NCBI RefSeq assembly: GCF_009674585.1
Contig: NZ_WKJP01000005.1
Coordinates: forward strand, 124,001-188,000
Direction: 5' to 3'
DNA length: 64,000 bases
Source: Haloferax marinisediminis
Lineage (GTDB): Archaea; Halobacteriota; Halobacteria; Halobacteriales; Haloferacaceae
Shown here piece after piece: positions 49,885 to 64,000 of this stretch (the stretch's first letter is position 1; the number at the start of each line of letters is the position of its first letter). The translations under genes and the position numbers were made by a program. The notes below the pieces were generated by a model. It had not been told where the DNA came from. It saw only the letters and a program-made list of their open reading frames with translations, and ran no database searches.

Positions 49885-49908
49885 ACATTAGTGGATTTGG
49901 GGTTCTAT

Positions 49909-51591
49909 ATGCAAGAGAATGACAAGGGGACCGAATCTCCCGATAGCAGCGGCGATGGTTCGATCCGTGGCCGTTTCGACCGCCGTACCTTCCTCGGCGC
50001 AGCAGCGACGACGGGCGCTGCAGCACTCGCAGGATGTACCGGTGGCAGCGACGATGGCGGCGAATCCGGTGGAGACTCTGGCAGTTCGGGCGGCAGCGGA
50101 GGTTCCAGCGACGACGACACCGAAACGGCCGAGGCAAGTGGCGGCAAGCAAGGTGGCACGCTCCAGTGGGGCGGTGCAGTTCCGGTTCAGGGTCTCGACC
50201 CTCACATCGACACCTCCGCGGCGTCGAAGCGCGTCCTCGAGAACATCTACGAGGAAGTCGTCGCGCTGCAGGACGACTACTCCATCAAGCCGCATCTCGC
50301 GAAGTCGTTCGACCAGTCGGACGACAACACGCTCCTGACGTTCGAACTCCGTGAGGGTGTCAAATTCCACAACGGCAAGGAGATGACCTCCGAAGACGTG
50401 CTCGCGAGTTACGAGCGCGTTCAGAACGGCGACTACCTCGCCACGGGATTCTTCGAGTTCGTCGAGGAACTCCGCGCCCCCGACGACTACACCTTCGAGA
50501 TTCAGCTCACCGAACCCTTCGCACCCTTCCTCGCGAAGATGGCGACGGCGGAACTCTCTGTCATGCCGGCCGAGAACGCCGCGAAGGACATGGTCGAGAC
50601 TCCCATCGGAACGGGCCCGTACAAGTTCGATAGCCGTGAAATCGAGACCTCGTTCACGATGGTTCGCAACGAGGACTACTGGGGGACCTCCGACGAGGAC
50701 GGCCCGTTCATCGAGGAAATCGTCAAGAGCGAGATTCCGGACCCGAGCGTCCGTCTCCAGTCGTTCCTCGCCGGCGAGTACGACTTCATCAACGGCATCG
50801 CGCCGAAGGACGTCTCTCGCGTCGAACAGGCACCTGACGTGCGCTTCGAGAAGCAGTTCCCCAAGTCGCTCGTCTACCTGGGAATGAACTGTGACGTGGC
50901 ACCTTTCGACAACAAGGACGCCCGCATCGCACTCGACTACGCCATCGACAAGGAGAAGGTCGCCGAAGCGGCTCTCTACGGCACCGGTGAGACCACTGCG
51001 TCCCCTGCAGCACCCGGAAGCCCATGGGTCAACCCTGACGTCGAACCGCGTCCACGTGACCTCGAAAAGGCACAGGAACACCTCGACGCCGCCGGCATGT
51101 CTGACGGTTACACGGCGACGTTCAAGATTCCGCAGTCCTACCCGACGCAGGTGCAGGCCGCAGAGGTCATCGCGGCCGACGCCGCCGAAGTGGGAATCAA
51201 TCTCGAAATCCAGCAGATCACGTGGAGTACGTGGCTCTCGGACGTCTACTCGAAGCGTGACTTCCAGGCGACGACGAGTTCCTACCTCGCACTGTGGTAC
51301 CCCGACGTGTCGTTCTACAAGTTCCTGCACCCCAACGGTGCGTTCTTCTTCACCAACTGGGTGAACGAGGACTACAACGCACTCGTCGAGGAAGCGCGTA
51401 CCATCTACGACGAAGACGAGCGCGCGGAGCTCTACCACGAGGCGACGCAGATTCTCCACGACGAACGTGCCGGTCACATGTTCCTGTGGTGGCAACCGAG
51501 CCTGTACGGTGCAGCCTCGCAGTACAAGGGTGACATCGGTGCACCCGACGGGTCGACGCTGCAGTTCTCCGACAACTGGCTCGACCGCTAA
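49909..51591 (+). CDS. ABC transporter solute-binding protein, family 5
   Basis: 560 residues from the ATG at 49909. RRTFLGAAATTGAAALAGC has Tat RR at 25-26 and lipobox Cys43, so the mature protein is anchored outside the membrane. A Gly/Ser/Asp-rich linker precedes the family 5 core: GVKFHNGKEMTSEDVLASYE, TPIGTGPYKF, then the C-terminal half with ARIALDYAIDKEKVAEAALY and EVGINLEIQQITW. It binds dipeptides, oligopeptides or similar compounds, and hands them to the permeases encoded next. Given the amidohydrolase nearby, an N-carbamoyl or other modified amino compound is possible. It is the first gene of the operon. Confidence 0.9.
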   Translation: MQENDKGTESPDSSGDGSIRGRFDRRTFLGAAATTGAAALAGCTGGSDDGGESGGDSGSSGGSGGSSDDDTETAEASGGKQGGTLQWGGAVPVQGLDPHIDTSAASKRVLENIYEEVVALQDDYSIKPHLAKSFDQSDDNTLLTFELREGVKFHNGKEMTSEDVLASYERVQNGDYLATGFFEFVEELRAPDDYTFEIQLTEPFAPFLAKMATAELSVMPAENAAKDMVETPIGTGPYKFDSREIETSFTMVRNEDYWGTSDEDGPFIEEIVKSEIPDPSVRLQSFLAGEYDFINGIAPKDVSRVEQAPDVRFEKQFPKSLVYLGMNCDVAPFDNKDARIALDYAIDKEKVAEAALYGTGETTASPAAPGSPWVNPDVEPRPRDLEKAQEHLDAAGMSDGYTATFKIPQSYPTQVQAAEVIAADAAEVGINLEIQQITWSTWLSDVYSKRDFQATTSSYLALWYPDVSFYKFLHPNGAFFFTNWVNEDYNALVEEARTIYDEDERAELYHEATQILHDERAGHMFLWWQPSLYGAASQYKGDIGAPDGSTLQFSDNWLDR

Positions 51592-51632
51592 CCCCGGTTC
51601 GACCCCACAATTTCAATACATAATTTCATACA

Positions 51633-52592
51633 ATGTCGATGTACAACTACGTCTTCCGGCGCGTTGGCTTCATGGCGGTGACGCTGTTCTTCGTCACGCT
51701 CATCGCCTTCGCCGTCACCAACATCCTCCCTGGTGACGTGGCCCTCCTCATCTTGGGCCCCAACGCGACCGAGCAGTCGCTCGAAGCGCTCCAAACTCAA
51801 CTGGGACTCAACCGCCCGCTGTACGTGCAGTACATCGACTGGGTCCTCGGGCTTCTTCAGGGGAACATGGGCGAATCACTGCGATTCGGCGAACCCGTGT
51901 CGGCGCTCATCGCCGAGCGCCTGCCCCGTTCGCTGATGCTGGCAGTCGCGGCGACGTTCGTCGCCGTCGTGCTGTCGATTCCGCTCGGCGTCTACGCCGC
52001 AATCAACCAGAACGAGGCGCCCGACGTGACCGCGTCGATGTTCGCCTTCGTCGGCATCTCGATGCCCATCTTCCTCTGGGGGCTGGTGTTCATCTTGGTG
52101 TTCGCCGTTTGGCTCAATCTCTTCCCGACCGGCGGGTATGTTTCACCGAGTGAGGACCTCGTCGGGTCGCTCACTCGACTCGTCCTCCCCGCGGGAGCGA
52201 TGGGCTTCGCACTCACCGCGTACATCATGCGGATGACCCGGTCGTCGATGCTCGAAGTGTTGAGCGAGGAGTACATCAACCTCGCGCGTGCGAAGGGGAT
52301 GAGCCAACGCGTCATCGTCCTTCGGCACGCACTCAAGAACGCTGTCATCCCCGTCATAACGGTCATCGCGTTCCAGTTCAGTTACGCGTTCGGCGGGGTC
52401 GTCGTGCTGGAAGAGGTGTTCTTCTGGCCCGGAATCGGCCGGTTGACGTTGACCGCAATTCAGAGCCGCGACATCCCCCTCATTCAGGGGTGTATCGTCG
52501 TGGTCGCACTCATCTACATGTTCTCGAACTTTGCCGCAGACTTGCTGTACGCGTACTTCGACCCGCGTATCCGCTACGGAGGTGACGACTAA
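51633..52592 (+). CDS. ABC transporter permease, DppB-like
   Basis: 319 residues with six membrane helices. It starts MSMYNYVFRRVGFMAVTLFF. The cytoplasmic EAA loop reads YINLARAKGMSQRVIVLRHA, then LKNAVIPVITVIAFQFSYAF and a loop VVVLEEVFFWPGIGRL, all typical of DppB/OppB. It forms the membrane pore with the next gene's product. It starts 42 bases after the binding-protein stop, and its TAA shares one base with the ATG of the next permease. Confidence 0.9.
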   Translation: MSMYNYVFRRVGFMAVTLFFVTLIAFAVTNILPGDVALLILGPNATEQSLEALQTQLGLNRPLYVQYIDWVLGLLQGNMGESLRFGEPVSALIAERLPRSLMLAVAATFVAVVLSIPLGVYAAINQNEAPDVTASMFAFVGISMPIFLWGLVFILVFAVWLNLFPTGGYVSPSEDLVGSLTRLVLPAGAMGFALTAYIMRMTRSSMLEVLSEEYINLARAKGMSQRVIVLRHALKNAVIPVITVIAFQFSYAFGGVVVLEEVFFWPGIGRLTLTAIQSRDIPLIQGCIVVVALIYMFSNFAADLLYAYFDPRIRYGGDD

Positions 52593-53491
52593 TGGCAACC
52601 GAACAAGAGACCGACGAAAGCAAGCCACTCATCTCGCAGTCGCAACGCGAACGAATGGCGCGCTTCGTCCGGAAGTTCCGGAGCAACACGAAGGCGATGC
52701 TCGGCTTTACCATCGTGGTGATGCTCGTGCTCGTCGCCATCTTCGCGCCCGTCATCGCTCCGTACTCGATAGAAGCGACGAACATCGAAGACCGGTCACA
52801 GCCCCCGTCGGTCGAACACCCGTTCGGAACCGACGACCTCGGACGTGACATATTCAGCCGCGTCGTCATGGGAAGTCGCATCTCGCTGTACGTTGGCTTC
52901 GGTGCCATCTCCGGTGCGCTCGCCGTCGGTGCCGTCATCGGTGTCGTCGCCGGGTACGCCGGGGGGTTGACAGACGAGATTCTGATGCGCGTCATGGACG
53001 CGGCGATGGCGTTCCCGCCGGTGCTCCTCGCACTGACGTTGCTCGTCGTGCTAGGTCCGGAGTTGAGTAACGTCATCATCGCGCTCGCGTTCGTCTATAC
53101 ACCGTACATCGCTCGCGTGTCGCGGAGTGCGGCGCTGGCCGAGCGCAACGAGGCGTACGTCGAGGCGGCCGTCGCCCGTGGCGAGAGCGACTCGCGCATC
53201 GTCTTCAGCGAGGTGTTCCCGAACTGTACGGCACCCATGCTGGTGCAGGGGTCGCTCAACATCTCGTTCGCCATTCTCGCGGAGGCGAGTCTGTCGTTCC
53301 TCGGTCTCGGTGCACAGCCACCGAAGCCCTCGTGGGGACTGATGATTAACACGGGCCGCGGTTTCATGGAGACTGCACCGTGGATGCTGCTGTTCCCCGC
53401 GCTGGCTATCGGTATCGCCGTCGTCGGATTCAACATGCTCGGTGACGGCCTGCGCGACGTTCTCGACCCCAAGGTGGAGGCGATAGAATGA
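52592..53491 (+). CDS. ABC transporter permease, DppC-like
   Basis: 299 residues. A 40-residue cytoplasmic start with [12 protein letters not shown] precedes helix one ([20 protein letters not shown]), and [20 protein letters not shown] is the classic DppC/OppC motif. The EAA loop reads [20 protein letters not shown], followed by [18 protein letters not shown]. Six helices in all. It overlaps the previous gene by one base and the next by four (ATGA), so the operon is translationally coupled. Confidence 0.9.
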
Positions 53492-55641
53492 GCACACACG
53501 CGACGACGACCGACCGCGAGGGTGACGACGGTCCCCTCCTCGACGTTCGCGGACTCAGAACAGAGTTCCGCACCGAAGAGGGGCCAATCGTCGCCTCGAA
53601 CGAAGTGTCGTTCTCGCTCGACCGCGGTGAGACCATGGGTCTCGTCGGTGAGTCGGGCGCAGGGAAGTCCGTCACGGCGCGCTCGATAATGCGCCTCATC
53701 GACTCGCCGGGCAGAATCACCGGTGGTGAGGTGGTCTTCGACGGTGAGGACCTCCTCGAAAAGACGGACGCGGAGATGCGCGACATCCGCGGCAACCGCA
53801 TCGCGATGATTCCGCAAGACCCGATGTCGTCGCTCAATCCAGTGATGACCGTCGGTGAGCAGATTATCGAGACGATTCGGCGCCACCAAGACGTCTCGAA
53901 AGACGAGGCACGGCGGCTCGCCATCGAGTCGATGGACGAAGTCGGTATCCCCGACGCGGCCGAACGCATTGACGACTACCCACACGAATTCTCCGGCGGG
54001 ATGCGCCAGCGTGTCCTCGTCGCGATTGGCTTCTCGTGTGAACCAGACCTCATCATTGCGGACGAACCGACCACCGCGCTCGACGTCACGACGCAGGCGA
54101 AGATTCTCGACCTGCTCAACGAGATGCAAGAGCGCGAAGGGACGGCCGTCCTGATGATTACGCACAACCTCGGCGTCGTCGCACAGACGTGTGACCACGT
54201 CGGCGTGATGTACGCCGGGAACCTCGTCGAGACGGCGAGACTCGCGGACCTGTTCGACAGGCCGCGTCACCCCTACACGCGGGCGCTCATCGACTCGATT
54301 CCGGAGGTCGACACCGACTACGACGAACTGCCGACGCTCGACGGTGCGATGCCCGACCTCGGTAACCTTCCGAGCGGGTGTAACTTCGCACCCCGCTGTC
54401 CGAACGCGACCGATGCGTGCCGGTCCGGCGGTGACCCGACACTCGATAGCGTCGATAACTCCTCGTCACGTGCAGCGTGTATCCACGCTGAAGACCTCGA
54501 CCTCTCCGAGAGTACGGTTCCCGAAGCAGGAGTCGGCAGAACGGAAATCGACCGCAGCGGCGAACCGCTGTTCGAGGTCAGCAACCTGAAGAAATACTTC
54601 AGCGCGGGCGAAGGCGTCTTCGGCAACGTTCACCTCTCGTTCGAGGGCGGTGGCCTGCCGACGATAGAACGTCGGTACGTCAAGGCCGTCGACGACGTGA
54701 GCTTCGACGTCTACCCCGGCGAAACCGTCGGTCTCGTGGGCGAGTCCGGGTGCGGGAAGTCGACCGTGGCCCGCACTGCGCTCCGACTCCTCGAACCAAC
54801 AGAGGGCGAAGTCTACTTCGAGGGCCAACCACTCCACGAACTCGGCTCCTCGGAGGTTCGGAGTCTGCGCCGCGAGATGCAGATGATCTTCCAGGACCCA
54901 CAGAGTTCGCTCAATCCGCGGAAGACGGTGGGACAAATCATCGGCCGGGCGATGGAGAAACACGACATCGCGACGGGCGAGGAGAAACGAGAGCGCGTGG
55001 GCGACCTGCTCGAACGCGTCGGCCTCTCGCGGCCAGCAGCGAGCAAGTACCCTCACGAGTTCTCTGGCGGGCAACAACAGCGCGTCGCCATCGCACACGC
55101 GCTCGCCGTCGAGCCGAAGCTCATCGTCTGTGACGAACCTGTCTCGGCGCTCGACGTGAGTGTCCAAGCGCAGATTCTCAATCTGCTCAACGAGATTCAG
55201 GCAGACGAGAACATCTCGTACCTGTTCATCTCGCACAACATCGGCGTCATCCGGCACATCTGTGACCGCGTCGCTGTGATGTACCTCGGGAAGATTGCGG
55301 AGTTCGGGGACATCGACGACGTGTTCTCGGCGCCGTTCCACCCCTACACCGAGAGTCTCCTGTCGGCGGTTCCGCACGCGAACCCTAACCGGCAGACTGA
55401 CCGCATCCTCCTCGAAGGGAGCGTTCCGAGTCCCATCAACCCACCGTCGGGATGCCCCTTCCAGACGCGCTGTCCCAAGAAGATTGGCGACGTCTGTGAG
55501 CAGGAACACCCGGGACTCGAAGCGATGGACGACACCGACCACTACATCTCGTGTCACCTGTCGGAAGCAGAGATGAGTGAACGCGATTCGTTCATCACGC
55601 CGTCGAAACAGGCGGAGACCAGTCCGGCGGATTCGGACTGA
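53488..55641 (+). CDS. fused ABC transporter ATPase, DppD-DppF-like
   Basis: 717 residues with two complete ATPase domains. Domain 1 has Walker A GESGAGKS, signature [10 protein letters not shown] and Walker [14 protein letters not shown], and ends with the Cys-rich oligopeptide module [14 protein letters not shown]. Domain 2 has [37 protein letters not shown] and [15 protein letters not shown]. In many organisms these are separate genes (DppD and DppF); here they are one chain. Both appear catalytically intact. It powers the importer encoded by the three previous genes and ends the operon. Confidence 0.9.
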
Positions 55642-55747
55642 GGCTCACGGGCACCCCTTCACTATCAGCGTACCGCCACACAACAGAGGCACCCACTACA
55701 CGTCTACTCGTGTACAACGCTATTTTTCTGGTCGATTTTTGTCTGCT

Positions 55748-57380: not shown

Positions 57381-59135
57381 TCACCGTGGAACTAACCACC
57401 TCGACTCCCAACGCTGGTCTCGTTCGCTATCCGGTTTGGACGTCGAGTTTTCGGGTTTCACGATGCGGTACACCACTACGCCTTCGTTGCCATAGACACG
57501 CCGGTAGCGGTTACTGTCGTCCAACGACATTCTGAGCTGTTCGGTCCGATCTTCCTCGAGGCCACGGACAGTGTACGTTCCAATGGGGACGTACAGGTAG
57601 TCGGGAGACGCTCCGACGGACTCCATCGACTCGGAGACGCAACTGGCGTTTTCGCAGGTACTCACCGACTTGAACGCCGATAACTGGCTGTAGTACTGGT
57701 CAGGACTCACCCATTCGACACCCCACGGTCCGACGAGAATCGTGCGCTTGGTGTAGTAGGGGAACCACTCGGCGGCGTCCGACAGAACCACGAACGAGGC
57801 GTTGGCTTCGGTGTGGTTTGCGGCCCACTTCATCGCCTGCCGATCGTCGTCGTCGAAGAACGGTGGCAGACTCGGACTGCCGTGGTGTGCATCCCCGATT
57901 TGACTCCCAGCGTAGAAGCCGCCGAGACTGACGCTGCAGATGATTGCGATGGCGAACGCCGCAGCGATTGTCTGTCGCGCATCGACGGTGTCACGTAGCG
58001 CGTCGGCCAGTTTTGGGACGACGAGTGCGAAGAACACCGTCGATATCATCATCGCCCCGGCGACGAACTGGAACCGCTCTTTTCCGAGGACGTACGCCGA
58101 GACGACGAGCCACACCGGAAGAATGTACTGTTTTCGGGATACGAGGACGACAGCAGCCGCGAAACTCGCGACGAAGAACACCGTCACGATCGTTGGGTCG
58201 AAGGGGTAGACGAACTGGTCGAGGAGGCGTTCGAGTCCACCTGCGATGCCACTGTGACTTCCAGCGGCCCCGGTGAACACGTCGACGCCGTGTGCCGAGA
58301 TGACCCACAACCACCACGGTGACGCGATGATGACTCCGCCGACTGCGGCGACTGCACCGCTGACGAGTCCTTGAATCGTGCGGTCGAACGCCGCGTAGAG
58401 GAGGACCCAACTGACACCGAAGAAGACGGTGTAGACTGGATGTGAGAGGATGGTGAGCGCGAAACAGATGGTGCCGACACCGACCCACTGCCACTCCCGG
58501 TCGATGAAGACTCTCGTCCCCGCGTAGATGCCACAGAGTGCGAGCAAGAACGCCGAGGCACGGACGATACCACCCGCCGAGAGGTGCCATTGGAGGACAG
58601 GTGGACACACGGCGAGGATGACCGTTGCGAACCCAGCCTGTCGTCTCGTCGGGAGGAGTTGGGTGGCGATTCCGTAGTACGGTACGAGGTAGAGAATCGT
58701 CACGACGGCCGGGAGGTATCGACTGATAGCTAGCCCCGAGATACCGAGGTCGGTGAGGACTGCAACGACGTAGAACTGAAGCGGTGGGTACGCGAACGGA
58801 ATCCCACCGGCGTAGTACGGAATCGTCGTCGGAAGTGCGTACCCATTGTCGCGAATCTGTGTTGCGATTTCGAGGTACAACCCTGCACCGAATGCTGGGT
58901 ACTGGTGGGTCGAAACGTAGGTTACCGAGACGACGACGCCAGCGAGGAGCGCGATTGCGAACCAGAGGTGACTGTCACGACCGAACCCCGGAATCTCTGA
59001 AGCGACATCTGAGGAGTGTTCGGTTGCGACGGGACCGAGACCCACCGCGAGTCGTGCGTCTGTGTGGGCGGCCATCGTGGCAGTCCCGGATTGGACGTCC
59101 TCGGTCTGTCTGGTGTCCGGTTGTTCCCCGGTCAT
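57381..59135 (-). CDS. GT-C-like polytopic membrane glycosyltransferase
   Basis: 584 residues when started at MTGEQPDTRQ (59135), where the ATG overlaps the stop of the upstream sulfotransferase-like gene by four bases. A 70-residue polar start precedes about 11 hydrophobic helices. After the first helix a loop has GLYLEIATQIRDNGYALP with the acidic residue expected in GT-C enzymes, and IPYYAGGIPFAYPPLQFYVV follows. The C-terminal 150 residues form an outside domain with paired Cys (CENASC). GT-C enzymes use polyprenyl-linked sugars on the outer face. Which glycan is made is unknown. It is coupled to the arylsulfotransferase-like gene. Confidence 0.65.
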   Translation of the reverse strand: MTGEQPDTRQTEDVQSGTATMAAHTDARLAVGLGPVATEHSSDVASEIPGFGRDSHLWFAIALLAGVVVSVTYVSTHQYPAFGAGLYLEIATQIRDNGYALPTTIPYYAGGIPFAYPPLQFYVVAVLTDLGISGLAISRYLPAVVTILYLVPYYGIATQLLPTRRQAGFATVILAVCPPVLQWHLSAGGIVRASAFLLALCGIYAGTRVFIDREWQWVGVGTICFALTILSHPVYTVFFGVSWVLLYAAFDRTIQGLVSGAVAAVGGVIIASPWWLWVISAHGVDVFTGAAGSHSGIAGGLERLLDQFVYPFDPTIVTVFFVASFAAAVVLVSRKQYILPVWLVVSAYVLGKERFQFVAGAMMISTVFFALVVPKLADALRDTVDARQTIAAAFAIAIICSVSLGGFYAGSQIGDAHHGSPSLPPFFDDDDRQAMKWAANHTEANASFVVLSDAAEWFPYYTKRTILVGPWGVEWVSPDQYYSQLSAFKSVSTCENASCVSESMESVGASPDYLYVPIGTYTVRGLEEDRTEQLRMSLDDSNRYRRVYGNEGVVVYRIVKPENSTSKPDSERDQRWESRWLVPR

Positions 59136-60484
59136 CGACGTCTGTGAATCGACAGCGGACTGTTCACTGAGAGACGGTAGGGAAGCCACCGGAGTTCGAG
59201 TACCACCCATCCGAGCGCGACCAGTATGGCGAGACAGGTCGCGAGGAGTGAGGTGGGTCCCATCCACTGCGGGAGGACGTAGTAAACGGCATTGACGACC
59301 GGTCCGGGAATGAACGACGATTGGGCAGCGTCGCCGCCACCACTCGTTATCCTGTTGACTGTGCGGTTTTCGAGGCCAAGTTCGTGTGCTGGCGGCCCTC
59401 CAGTGCTTTCGTCACCAGTTCCGAGGCGTTCTGCTTCGTATGGGAACGCGACAGGGATGCTCCAGACGACTTCACCCGTCTCGTCCAGTTCGAGGATACG
59501 ATTTCCGTTCGAGTCGGTCACGAGTGTGTGACCATTCGGAAGCCGGTCGGCGTCTCGTGGCCACTGGAGCCGACGGTCTTGCCAGACCCACGAACGGGCC
59601 CACCCGTCTCCGGTCCAGCGATACTCGACGAGACGGTTGTTCTCAGAGTCGGCGACGAGGACAGCGTCGTCACCGTCCTCGTTGACGAGGTAATCCGGGT
59701 TGTGCTGTTCGTAAATAATGTCGTGAGACCCATTTCCGAGTGTTCGCTCGTGGACGAGGCCAGTCTCACGGTCGAGATAGACGATTCTGTCGTGATTTCG
59801 AAGACTGACCTGTATGTGGCCGTTTGGAAGCACTTCGACGTCGTTGAGATGCGTCCAATCTGAGGGGTACGGACCGCCCGTCGTCACGGTGTCGAAATCG
59901 GCCTGTGCCTCCCACGCCCACTCGACGAGTCCTGAGGTGGTGTTCACGATGAAGACGCGGTCTAGAGCGATGTCGGCGATTACGTACGAATCGTCGTCCA
60001 GTCGGTCACCATCGTGCCAGCGCGTAGAATGCTTTCCAGGAGTGATTCGACTGTAGATGTGTTCGACCTCTCCCGTCGTGAGGTTCACGCGTTCGATGCC
60101 GTTTCGAGTACAGACCTCTTCTCCGCCACACTGCTCGGGGGTGAGGTGGTCTGAGTAGAGGTACTCCACGGTCGCAGTCGTCCCCGGTACGGGGTCGACA
60201 TCCCAGTAGCGAGTGTGTGACCCGTTGTAGTACGCGACGGTTCCGTCAGCAGCGAAGGCGATGAGTTCGGCGCTCGCGCGCGGACCGTCGCGTTCACGGC
60301 CGAGCCAGGTGTTCGAGTCGGTTGCGACGACGGTCATCCCGTCGGCTGGTGCGACACGGATGTCGTCGGCAGTCGCGTCGGTCACCGTCTGCGCTGACTG
60401 CGTAACTTGGGCACCACTGACGATGCCGATGCAAACGAGGAGGGCAACCGCTGCAGCGACTCGAACGTGAGTACGCTCGACCAT
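59132..60484 (-). CDS. arylsulfotransferase-like beta-propeller membrane protein
   Basis: 450 residues. An N-terminal signal or anchor helix (VAAAVALLVCIGIVSGAQVT) and a C-terminal membrane helix (SLLATCLAILVALGWVVLEL) bracket an outside domain with propeller-type repeats: DWTHLNDVEVLPNGHIQVSL, RDADRLPNGHTLVTDSNGNR, ILELDETGEVVWSIPVAF. Such LPNGH repeats are typical of the arylsulfotransferase (ASST) family, which transfers sulfate between phenolic compounds via a His. The His in HDIIYEQHNPDYL or WTHLND may serve. Whether it really transfers sulfate is unproven. Its stop overlaps the start of the GT-C-like gene, so the pair may make a sulfated or otherwise modified surface glycan. Confidence 0.75.
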   Translation of the reverse strand: MVERTHVRVAAAVALLVCIGIVSGAQVTQSAQTVTDATADDIRVAPADGMTVVATDSNTWLGRERDGPRASAELIAFAADGTVAYYNGSHTRYWDVDPVPGTTATVEYLYSDHLTPEQCGGEEVCTRNGIERVNLTTGEVEHIYSRITPGKHSTRWHDGDRLDDDSYVIADIALDRVFIVNTTSGLVEWAWEAQADFDTVTTGGPYPSDWTHLNDVEVLPNGHIQVSLRNHDRIVYLDRETGLVHERTLGNGSHDIIYEQHNPDYLVNEDGDDAVLVADSENNRLVEYRWTGDGWARSWVWQDRRLQWPRDADRLPNGHTLVTDSNGNRILELDETGEVVWSIPVAFPYEAERLGTGDESTGGPPAHELGLENRTVNRITSGGGDAAQSSFIPGPVVNAVYYVLPQWMGPTSLLATCLAILVALGWVVLELRWLPYRLSVNSPLSIHRRR

Positions 60485-60621: not shown

Positions 60622-62058
60622 ATGCCACCTCGCGCTCGGCGGCTCGGGGGCCTCGTCGTCCTCGCTGTCTTCGTCATCCTGTCGATGTCTGCCGTGTCGT
60701 CAGTGAGCGCCATCGACCTGACACCGGCAGACCTCTTCGACGATGGCCGCGCCGAGCCGGATGGCGTCGAAGACGCTGAGGCAGTGCGTCTCGTCTCCGT
60801 CGGTCCCGAGCAAGACCGATTGTGGCCGTTCACCAGCAGGGGGAAGTCGTTCGACACGTTGACGCTTCCCATCAACGTGGTCGTCGAGGGTGACTCTGCA
60901 CGAGTCCGTTCTCTCCTCGTCTACTCACAGGATGCGCGGTGGGACGAGACGAACGAGTCGTGGAAGGAGGTGCCTGGCGAACGGAACCTGTCGAGTGCGG
61001 ATGGCTCCGTCTGGGGGCCAGCGACGGGTGCAGACCGATATACGTACGTCGACACTGATGCTCCTGGTGCGCTCTGGGTCGACGAATCGACGCAACTCCA
61101 CGATGGGACGTACTTTGGCAGCCGGATTCACCTTCGCCTGTACGGTGTCGGCAGTCAGGGGAACTCGTGGACGGCGATTCAGGCCCACCGTGACTACTGG
61201 GATTGGTTCCGCCTGAGACATACGGTGACGGGGCTCGCTGGCCCCCAACACACTGTCGAGCGTGACTTGATGGACCAGCCGGCGGTCACCGAAGTCCGCC
61301 GAGTCCGATACGGAAACGGTGGAATCTTCGACGCCGATGGGTGGGTGACTGTGGTCGAACTCGCACCCCCGCAACTCGTCTCTGAGGAGTCGGTCGACGA
61401 CCAACCAGTTTCCGACGACACCGCGTCGTCGACGAACAACGATGTGGACGACGCTGAACCCGAGCCCACGTCCTCGACGATCGAACTTACGGACAGTCTC
61501 GTGGTCCTCTCGCTCGTCGCCCTCGCCATTGCGGGTGTGGGAGGTCTCGCCACTTTCGCTCGTGACGGTGACCGTACCGGTGCACTCACCGAACGCTTCC
61601 ACCGGTCGCGCCTCGGCGACCCGCGGGTCCAACGAGCAATCGCACTCTTTGCGACGCTAGTTCTGCTCCCGCTGTTCATCCGGTGGGTCGCCCTCGTTCT
61701 CGAAGGGTTCGCCCCGAACCATCCAAAAATCATCGCCGGTCTCCTCTACCCGGTGTTCGCACTTGGCCCGCCGGCCGTGGCACTGTGGCTTCCCCGTGGA
61801 TACTCTTCGGAGCGCTGGTTTGGACTCGCGTTCCTCGGCTACGGGATTGGATTGGTCGTCGACTTCGGATTCGTCGGCGTCTCTGTCGTTCCCCTCGACC
61901 TCGTCCTCCATCGCTTCGTCGTGCTCGTTTCCCTCGGCCTCCTCGCCGTCGTTGGACACCGCCGGTCGGGGTTCGACGACGCGAACTCACTCGCGCTTCC
62001 TGCGACTATCGGCCTGTGGATTCTTCTCTTGCTCTGGCCGCTCTTCCTCGGGGTGTAA
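60622..62058 (+). CDS. membrane protein with outside domain, unknown function
   Basis: 478 residues. The signal peptide or first helix (LGGLVVLAVFVILSMSAVSS) precedes an outside domain of about 230 residues containing SWTAIQAHRDYWDWFRLRHT and VTEVRRVRYGNGGIFDADGW. A Ser/Thr/Asp-rich stretch (residues 260-295) leads to about six helices in the C-terminal half (LVVLSLVALAIAGVGGLATF, AIALFATLVLLPLFIRWVAL and others). The conserved HRDYWDWF region recalls LssY C-terminal-like proteins, but I am not sure. It is divergent from the arylsulfotransferase-like gene and may be part of the same surface system. Confidence 0.6.
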   Translation: MPPRARRLGGLVVLAVFVILSMSAVSSVSAIDLTPADLFDDGRAEPDGVEDAEAVRLVSVGPEQDRLWPFTSRGKSFDTLTLPINVVVEGDSARVRSLLVYSQDARWDETNESWKEVPGERNLSSADGSVWGPATGADRYTYVDTDAPGALWVDESTQLHDGTYFGSRIHLRLYGVGSQGNSWTAIQAHRDYWDWFRLRHTVTGLAGPQHTVERDLMDQPAVTEVRRVRYGNGGIFDADGWVTVVELAPPQLVSEESVDDQPVSDDTASSTNNDVDDAEPEPTSSTIELTDSLVVLSLVALAIAGVGGLATFARDGDRTGALTERFHRSRLGDPRVQRAIALFATLVLLPLFIRWVALVLEGFAPNHPKIIAGLLYPVFALGPPAVALWLPRGYSSERWFGLAFLGYGIGLVVDFGFVGVSVVPLDLVLHRFVVLVSLGLLAVVGHRRSGFDDANSLALPATIGLWILLLLWPLFLGV

Positions 62059-62134: not shown

Positions 62135-63991
62135 ATGTCATCTTCCCGACTCAGTAGGCGGTCGTTTCTGGCGCTCTCAGGCGTCGGACTGACCAGCGGC
62201 TGCGTCAGGCAAATCGAGTCGACGTTCTCGCGTGATCACCAACGACCCCTCTCGTTTTCGATACTGACGGTTCCCGCCGATTCAGATGCAGTGGCGACGA
62301 AACTCGCTCGGTACCTCGCGATACAACTGCAACAAGTCGGTATCGATGCGTCTGTCGTTCCGGTGAGTCGGGAACAACTGCTCCGGTCCGTTCTCTTGAA
62401 TCACGATTTCGACATCTACGTGTACCGGTTCCCGCTCCCGTGGGACCCGGATTTTCTCAGGCCACTGCTTCACTCTCGGTTCGCACCCGACATTGGCTGG
62501 CAAAATCCATTCGGATACGGGGACCTGTCGCTCGACTCGCTGCTCGAACGGCAACGAACTGAACGCGGGGGTGTGCGGAACTCCACGCTCTCAGATGCGC
62601 AGTACCGAATCGTCGAAAATCAGCCGTTCACACCAGTTGCAGTTCCACACACGGCCCGGGCGACACGCCCAGACCGAGTCGACTGGCCTGTCGGCGAACC
62701 ATTACACAGTGTCGCAGCGTATCTCGGAGCGCGCCCGGTCGAAGCCGAGCGGGTTTCGTCCAGCGTGCCACCGACTGCTTCGCCCGCTGGGACACCGTCG
62801 AACGACTCGACACCGACGACGTCGACTGAAACTGTCTCTCAAGCGAATCGGCTTCGAATGACGGTAACCGACGCCCGCCCCACCGAGAACTTGAACCCGT
62901 TGTCGACGGCGTTTCGGTCCGACGGGACGTTTATTGGACTCATCTACGATTCGCTCGGCCGAGTACTTGATGACCAGATGCATCCGTGGATGGCTTCGTC
63001 GTGGTGGTGGATCGACGACGATCCGACGACGCTCTCGGTCAGACTTCGTGATGGTCTCGAATGGCACGATGGGACCGCTATCACTGCTGGTGACGTTGCG
63101 TTCACGTTCCGGTTCCTCACGGACACGTCGCTCGGAACGCTCGACCAACTCGTCCCGTCACCGCAGTACCGTGGCCGGGCGTCGCTGGTCGAATCGGTCT
63201 CGACAGAGTCCTCACGGGATGTTGTACTGCGTTTCGGTGATGTAGACCAAACTGTCGCACTGCGTGCGCTGTCTGTACCCATCCTTCCACAGCACGTCTG
63301 GGAGCGGTACGCCCGTGCGACGAGCGTGTCGTGGCTCGACGGTGGGCGTATCACAGAAGCGCTCGTTCGGAACAACCTCGACCCAGTCGGAAGCGGGCCG
63401 TTTCGCGTGACTGGAAGTGCTCTCAGGGAGTCACTGTCGATGGAACGGTTCGATGAGCACTTCTTGTCGACGCAAGAACTCGACGGTCCGGTTGCTCGAT
63501 TCGAGGGTGGATTCGCGTTCGATGGACTGGAGTTCATCGTCGCTCCCTCCGGGAATGCTGCCGTCAAACTGCTCTCCGATGGTGCCGTGGACGCGACGGC
63601 TGACCTGCTTTCGTCGGATGCGGTACGGTCGGCACTGGCAACCCCGAACATCAGCGTGCGGACCGGAATGTCTCGGTGGTGTTATCACGTCGGCTACAAC
63701 CTCAGGAAACCACCGTTTACCAACCCACGGTTTAGACGGGCCGTTGCCCGACTCATCTCTCGGCCGTTCCTCACGGAGACGGTGTTCGATGGACGTGCCC
63801 AGGGGGCGGTGTCTCCGCTTGCGACGACGCGGTATGCACCACAAGGACAGCAGTGGGACGACCTCCTCACTGAACTCGGATTCGTCGGCAACTTCCGAAC
63901 TGGCAGCCTCGACGTCGACCGTGCCCGCTCGCTGTTCGTGGATGCAGGATACAGCTATTCGACCGGTGGTGACCTTCTGGTGCAAGAATGA
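62135..63991 (+). CDS. Tat lipoprotein, permuted family 5 solute-binding protein
   Basis: 618 residues from the ATG at 62135 (MSSSRLSRRSFLALSGVGLT then SGC, RR at 8-9, lipobox Cys23). Residues about 37-185 resemble the part usually at the C-terminus of family 5 binding proteins: LQQVGIDASVVPVSREQLL, FDIYVYRFPLPWDPDFLRPL, HSRFAPDIGWQNPFGYGD. A Ser/Thr/Pro linker (205-235) follows. Then comes the usual N-terminal start, TENLNPLSTAFRSDGTFIGL, RLRDGLEWHDGTAITAGDVA and the second-lobe motif FTNPRFRRAVARLISRPF. It ends at ARSLFVDAGYSYSTGGDLLV, where the C-terminal lobe normally continues. The domain order is therefore rotated. The stop overlaps the next gene's ATG, so the end is not an accident of the window. 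Substrate unknown. Confidence 0.78.
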   Translation: MSSSRLSRRSFLALSGVGLTSGCVRQIESTFSRDHQRPLSFSILTVPADSDAVATKLARYLAIQLQQVGIDASVVPVSREQLLRSVLLNHDFDIYVYRFPLPWDPDFLRPLLHSRFAPDIGWQNPFGYGDLSLDSLLERQRTERGGVRNSTLSDAQYRIVENQPFTPVAVPHTARATRPDRVDWPVGEPLHSVAAYLGARPVEAERVSSSVPPTASPAGTPSNDSTPTTSTETVSQANRLRMTVTDARPTENLNPLSTAFRSDGTFIGLIYDSLGRVLDDQMHPWMASSWWWIDDDPTTLSVRLRDGLEWHDGTAITAGDVAFTFRFLTDTSLGTLDQLVPSPQYRGRASLVESVSTESSRDVVLRFGDVDQTVALRALSVPILPQHVWERYARATSVSWLDGGRITEALVRNNLDPVGSGPFRVTGSALRESLSMERFDEHFLSTQELDGPVARFEGGFAFDGLEFIVAPSGNAAVKLLSDGAVDATADLLSSDAVRSALATPNISVRTGMSRWCYHVGYNLRKPPFTNPRFRRAVARLISRPFLTETVFDGRAQGAVSPLATTRYAPQGQQWDDLLTELGFVGNFRTGSLDVDRARSLFVDAGYSYSTGGDLLVQE

Positions 63992-64000
63992 CCTTCTCGC
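63988..64000 (+). CDS. start of next gene (partial, probable ABC permease)
   Basis: An ATG at 63988 overlaps the TGA of the binding protein by four bases and opens a frame reading MTFS to the right edge. The coupling and order suggest the permease of the same ABC transporter, but only four codons are visible. Confidence 0.4.

Follow-up and report, generated by a model that had tools for sequence, protein, structure and literature searches.

A circularly permuted family 5 solute-binding lipoprotein encoded beside a PAP2-family gene in haloarchaea

Introduction

The canonical solute-binding proteins (SBPs) of family 5 (OppA, DppA, AppA and NikA; PF00496) share fold and sequence homology over both parts of the haloarchaeal protein described here. 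Natural circular permutation of a lipid-anchored SBP is represented by TpMglB-2 (Tp0684) of T. pallidum, a glucose-binding lipoprotein whose authors suggest a link between the permutation and membrane anchoring (PMC4990184). TpMglB-2 differs from our protein in being of the Type I / Cluster B class, in having its break in the N lobe, and in its ABC/chemoreceptor context.

SBP-fold lipoproteins have also been tied to envelope enzymes of the membrane. In mycobacteria, the SBP-like lipoproteins LpqZ and FecB, which lack a transporter, interact with AftA and AftB, respectively (PMC12802301), and LpqW channels glycolipid intermediates (PMC3229680). The pairing of an SBP lipoprotein with an envelope enzyme in the absence of a transporter therefore has precedent, although these proteins are not described as permuted and their partners are glycosyltransferases or act in glycolipid synthesis, unlike the PAP2 partner reported below.

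With the exception of TpMglB-2, our search found nothing relevant on permuted family 5 SBPs (SBP5s) or haloarchaea, and no description of a permuted SBP5 was found in the literature searched, which excluded most subscription journals. Within that literature, natural circular permutation of Opp/Dpp-class binding proteins appears undescribed so far, even though permuted proteins make up half of the SBP5 set of the genome studied here.

Results and Discussion

Swapped parts of a family 5 binding protein

We analyzed a window of 64,000 nucleotides from Haloferax marinisediminis, near the end of which an intact open reading frame encodes a protein of 618 aa. Its features are as follows.

62135..63991, + strand: circularly permuted SBP5 lipoprotein, 618 aa (open reading frame; swapped Pfam halves; canonical tail and core HMMs; model)
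62135..62203, + strand: Tat-type signal with lipobox, RRSFLAL...TSGC, Cys23 (alignment of homologues)
62234..62749, + strand: residues ~34-205, canonical SBP5 C-terminal part (AppA 347-490, NikA 336-469; VIA-align of a weak model, tail HMM, Pfam)
62750..62842, + strand: Ser/Thr/Pro-rich linker between what were ancestrally the C- and N-termini, residues ~206-236 (pLDDT, alignment)
62843..63988, + strand: residues ~237-618, canonical SBP5 N-terminal and middle part (AppA 21-357; VIA-align, Pfam)

Pfam reports this protein merely as an ordinary SBP5, with an SBP_bac_5 (PF00496) score of 152 bits against a cut-off of 32.4. The segments do not follow the canonical order, however: residues 42-113 correspond to model positions 290-362 of 368 while the C-terminal part of the protein corresponds to positions 2-284, placing the tail before the core. 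We therefore file it as a permuted variant of the SBP_bac_5 family, apart from its ordinary members. With HMMs derived from canonical proteins, the tail matched residues ~36-180 (E 3e-16) and the core matched residues ~231-610 (E 1e-51). In the opposite direction, HMMs built from the haloarchaeal family matched ordinary SBP5s of bacteria and archaea with the order of the two parts reversed, and the E values for the tail went down to 5e-13.

An AlphaFold2 model built from 24 family members had a pLDDT of 83.1 and a pTM of 0.79, and the only stretches with pLDDT below 50 were the signal region and the Ser/Thr/Pro linker (205-236), which is also variable in length among homologues. Using VIA-align, residues 237-618 were superposed on AppA 21-357 (Z 22.0, rmsd 2.9, 329 residues aligned). 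The N-terminal segment modelled alone gave a weak model (pLDDT 66), which we used solely to ask where it aligns. It fell on AppA 347-490, NikA 336-469 and CtaP 355-523 with Z of 5-8; for the AppA chain, whose other residues are taken up by the core, Z was 5.4. Together the two alignments place the predicted protein in the two-lobe cluster C fold. As these Z values are modest, they support the HMM result and do not carry the claim of permutation. Aligned separately to family 5 proteins, the halves occupy swapped, adjoining ranges of the same chains.

The weak lone model and its low Z values are what might be expected if the N-terminal segment were an unrelated domain and the order were not swapped. 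That reading is already contradicted by the match of the canonical tail HMM and by the reverse search, which matched canonical tails, and within the full-length model the same segment has a pLDDT mostly of 75-97. We regard it as almost certainly wrong.

These data confirm the protein as a genuine circular permutant of a family 5 SBP. As in TpMglB-2, two SBP-homologous halves are swapped and the chain ends where the moved part starts. The original prediction, made from the sequence alone, had proposed just this arrangement, including the Ser/Thr/Pro linker between the halves and a chain that stops where the moved segment would begin, and it is borne out by the Pfam order, the canonical tail HMM and the structural comparison. 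The swapped parts and the extra linker distinguish the protein from canonical SBP5s.

The break point lies in what we take to be domain III in the OppA nomenclature; the lipid anchor of the permuted protein would therefore sit on the second lobe. Permuted SBP5s offer a natural test of break position and anchor site against lobe closure.

Signal sequence and chain end

In the alignment of 24 homologues, R8, R9, G22 and C23 of the Tat lipobox were invariant. At the other end of the protein, a motif of the type FxxAGYxYxxxGxLxxR/Q closed all 30 of the homologues that we extracted, and for this reason we consider the chain end genuine, as had been proposed on the grounds that the next ATG (63988-63990) overlaps the stop codon (TGA, 63989-63991). 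A frame error or misassembly was rejected, as the swapped order is conserved across many genomes; the presence of the family in 264 of 391 haloarchaeal genomes, roughly two thirds of those sampled, likewise argues against a chance reading frame. The search for the same arrangement elsewhere, which the original prediction had suggested, was thus positive.

The overlapping gene encodes a PAP2-family protein

63988..64000, + strand: start of the overlapping PAP2_3-family gene, which runs past the window end (genome locus L035:5989-6798)

We considered an ABC permease as the next gene and rejected it. The gene encodes a PAP2_3/PAP2 protein of 270 aa that matched PF14378 with 58.9 bits (cut-off 27, E 7.5e-16) and PF01569 with 46.3 bits (cut-off 27.2). 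The overlap of the ATG had been recognized correctly, but the identity of its gene lay beyond the window end. Its closest relatives are PgpB, YodM and undecaprenyl-diphosphatases, with Aur1 a weaker match. The active-site residues R162, S196, H198, H240 and D244 are conserved; R162, H198, H240 and D244 each occur in at least 93% of 58 PAP2 partners. The Pfam scores and these residues together place the partner in the PAP2 superfamily. It is a putative phosphatase or phosphotransferase, and its similarity to PAP2 proteins fixes neither the substrate nor the reaction (hydrolysis or transfer).

At 58 of the 61 loci of the family, this PAP2 subfamily was found next to the permuted SBP gene. In two genomes (G082 and G093) no PAP2 gene was found adjoining the SBP gene, yet both genomes do contain a member of the subfamily (E 1.4e-78 and 4.3e-75, respectively). 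Across the 391 genomes of the class, 263 of the 264 genomes that possess the permuted family also have the subfamily, against none of the 127 genomes without that family, a count that is inflated by shared ancestry among these related genomes and that rests on cut-offs (E <1e-60 for the permuted family, E <1e-40 for the PAP2 subfamily) placed at clear gaps but chosen after the results were viewed. The co-occurrence is partly a matter of inheritance as one operon.

No ABC permease found beside the permuted SBP gene

Canonical SBP5 genes and the gene at 62135-63991 differ in context, the latter having PAP2 and no ABC permease next door. None of the 32 loci of this family that we inspected had an Opp permease nearby, and an ATPase-like match was present in two; the family therefore lacks the neighboring cognate permease and ATPase genes of an ABC importer. 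On the other hand, 13 of the 14 permuted SBP5s outside the family adjoin an Opp/Dpp permease and ATPase.

It could be speculated that the ABC genes may be located elsewhere in the genome and that the permuted lipoprotein could still serve ABC transporters encoded at a distance. It would then be an ordinary, if permuted, binding protein feeding an Opp/Dpp importer, and the PAP2 neighbor would be incidental. The retention of the predicted SBP fold and the placement of the nearest permuted relatives in full ABC operons are consistent with this possibility; however, it is unlikely given the 32 loci without a nearby permease and the almost one-to-one match in presence between the family and a single PAP2 subfamily across 391 genomes.

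Within the window, an ordinary Opp/Dpp operon lies at ~49892-55642 (L160 7892-13642) and encodes, in this order, a canonical SBP5, two permeases and a double ATPase.

Permuted SBP5s in other operons and their origin

By a census resting on search only, five of the ten SBP5 genes in the H. marinisediminis genome are permuted, the other four permuted ones belonging to Opp/Dpp operons that also encode permeases and ATPases. We also found permuted SBP5s beside ABC genes in Halogeometricum limi (L140), in a Marsarchaeota genome (L096), in the Alphaproteobacteria Roseomonas, Ketogulonicigenium, Nitratireductor and Maritalea, and on several haloarchaeal plasmids. The expectation that permuted binding proteins are rare was thus mistaken. 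Candidates from Meiothermus and Fusobacterium proved canonical and were rejected.

The permuted SBP5s of the haloarchaeal and alphaproteobacterial Opp-type operons share the swapped order of the family described here, and their break falls at roughly the same place (tail-HMM position ~45-55). When a maximum-likelihood tree was built from the core, 22 of the 24 permuted proteins formed one clade (97/96), which unites the operon-encoded proteins, with their adjoining permeases and ATPases, and our family. Our family formed a single haloarchaeal clade (100/100) inside it. The two remaining proteins, L152 (from the H. marinisediminis genome) and L096, grouped with canonical proteins, and their break points differ slightly (~40-44, compared to ~45-55 in the main clade). 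The best tree requires three changes of segment order, suggesting that SBP5s have likely been permuted repeatedly. Constraining all permuted proteins together was not rejected (AU p 0.054; 0.058 when L096 was omitted), and a single origin is accordingly neither shown nor rejected by the tree.

Two of these groups have further features. In the Marsarchaeota protein (L096 5745-7454), the chain closes with an Asn/Ser/Thr linker and a C-terminal transmembrane anchor, the latter replacing a lipid anchor, and the gene adjoins an Opp operon on the opposite strand. Three alphaproteobacterial permuted-SBP5 operons (L191, L192 and L193) are accompanied by M28/M20 peptidase and hydantoinase/oxoprolinase genes, hinting at a substrate of the pyroglutamyl or cyclic-dipeptide type.

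Proposed role of the pair

The best explanation for the observed pairing is that the lipoprotein was repurposed as a partner to an outward-facing lipid-phosphate enzyme, with a binding or a regulatory role; we infer the physical partnership of the two proteins, the ligand and the reaction. We consider it an evenly balanced proposition that this Tat-exported, lipid-anchored protein of permuted SBP5 fold has left ABC transport and is now the regular partner of a membrane PAP2 enzyme.

According to this proposal, one haloarchaeal clade would have departed from ABC transport and become the partner of a PAP2-type phosphatase or phosphotransferase encoded by the overlapping gene. The lipoprotein, held on the outer face of the membrane, may bind a small polar ligand or a lipid head group and would present it to, or thereby regulate, the PAP2 active site on the same face. 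A lipid-linked phosphate would then be the substrate of the enzyme, in a step such as the recycling of polyprenyl (pyro)phosphate or the transfer of head groups.

Another possibility is that the lipoprotein is a ligand sensor that controls PAP2, or the metabolism of surface lipids, but passes on no substrate, like the role proposed for LpqW. This SBP lipoprotein, reported to channel glycolipid intermediates (PMC3229680), was among the structural matches of our model (2grv), and the SBP-PAP2 pairing would be expected here as well. The present data do not separate sensing from substrate delivery, and we judge the sensor to be conceivable but on the improbable side.

A broader form of the partnership proposal would be an ABC-free two-component system in which, throughout haloarchaea, ligand binding for an outward-facing PAP2 lipid-phosphate enzyme is the dedicated task of the permuted lipoprotein as its subunit, and in which SBP5s were permuted more than once at the same loop region (main clade, L096 and L152, with slightly different break points). 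We advance this combination tentatively and lean somewhat against it. That the family is so closely paired with a single PAP2 subfamily nevertheless points to an envelope-lipid function in about two thirds of the sampled haloarchaea, one that is amenable to genetics in Haloferax.

Other genes near the pair

60622..62058, + strand: secreted/multi-TM protein, 478 aa, upstream of the SBP-PAP2 pair (tblastn)
59132-60484, - strand: arylsulfotransferase-like protein (PF14269, E 2e-7)
57381-59267, - strand: membrane protein, 628 aa, without a Pfam match

The 478-aa protein had no match in Pfam or NCBIfam; by tblastn, it accompanies the pair at 8 of 30 named loci and also in H. gibbonsii. The two minus-strand genes are divergent and adjoin the pair. 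In Haloferax gibbonsii (L194) and Haloarcula JP-L23 (L203) both are again next to the pair, whereas 30 other named loci lack them. A role of this neighborhood in surface glycolipids would be a guess.

In Natrialbaceae and relatives (L068, L072, L074-L079, L082, L083, L085 and L090), the permuted SBP gene is present as two tandem copies, which PAP2 genes flank or separate.
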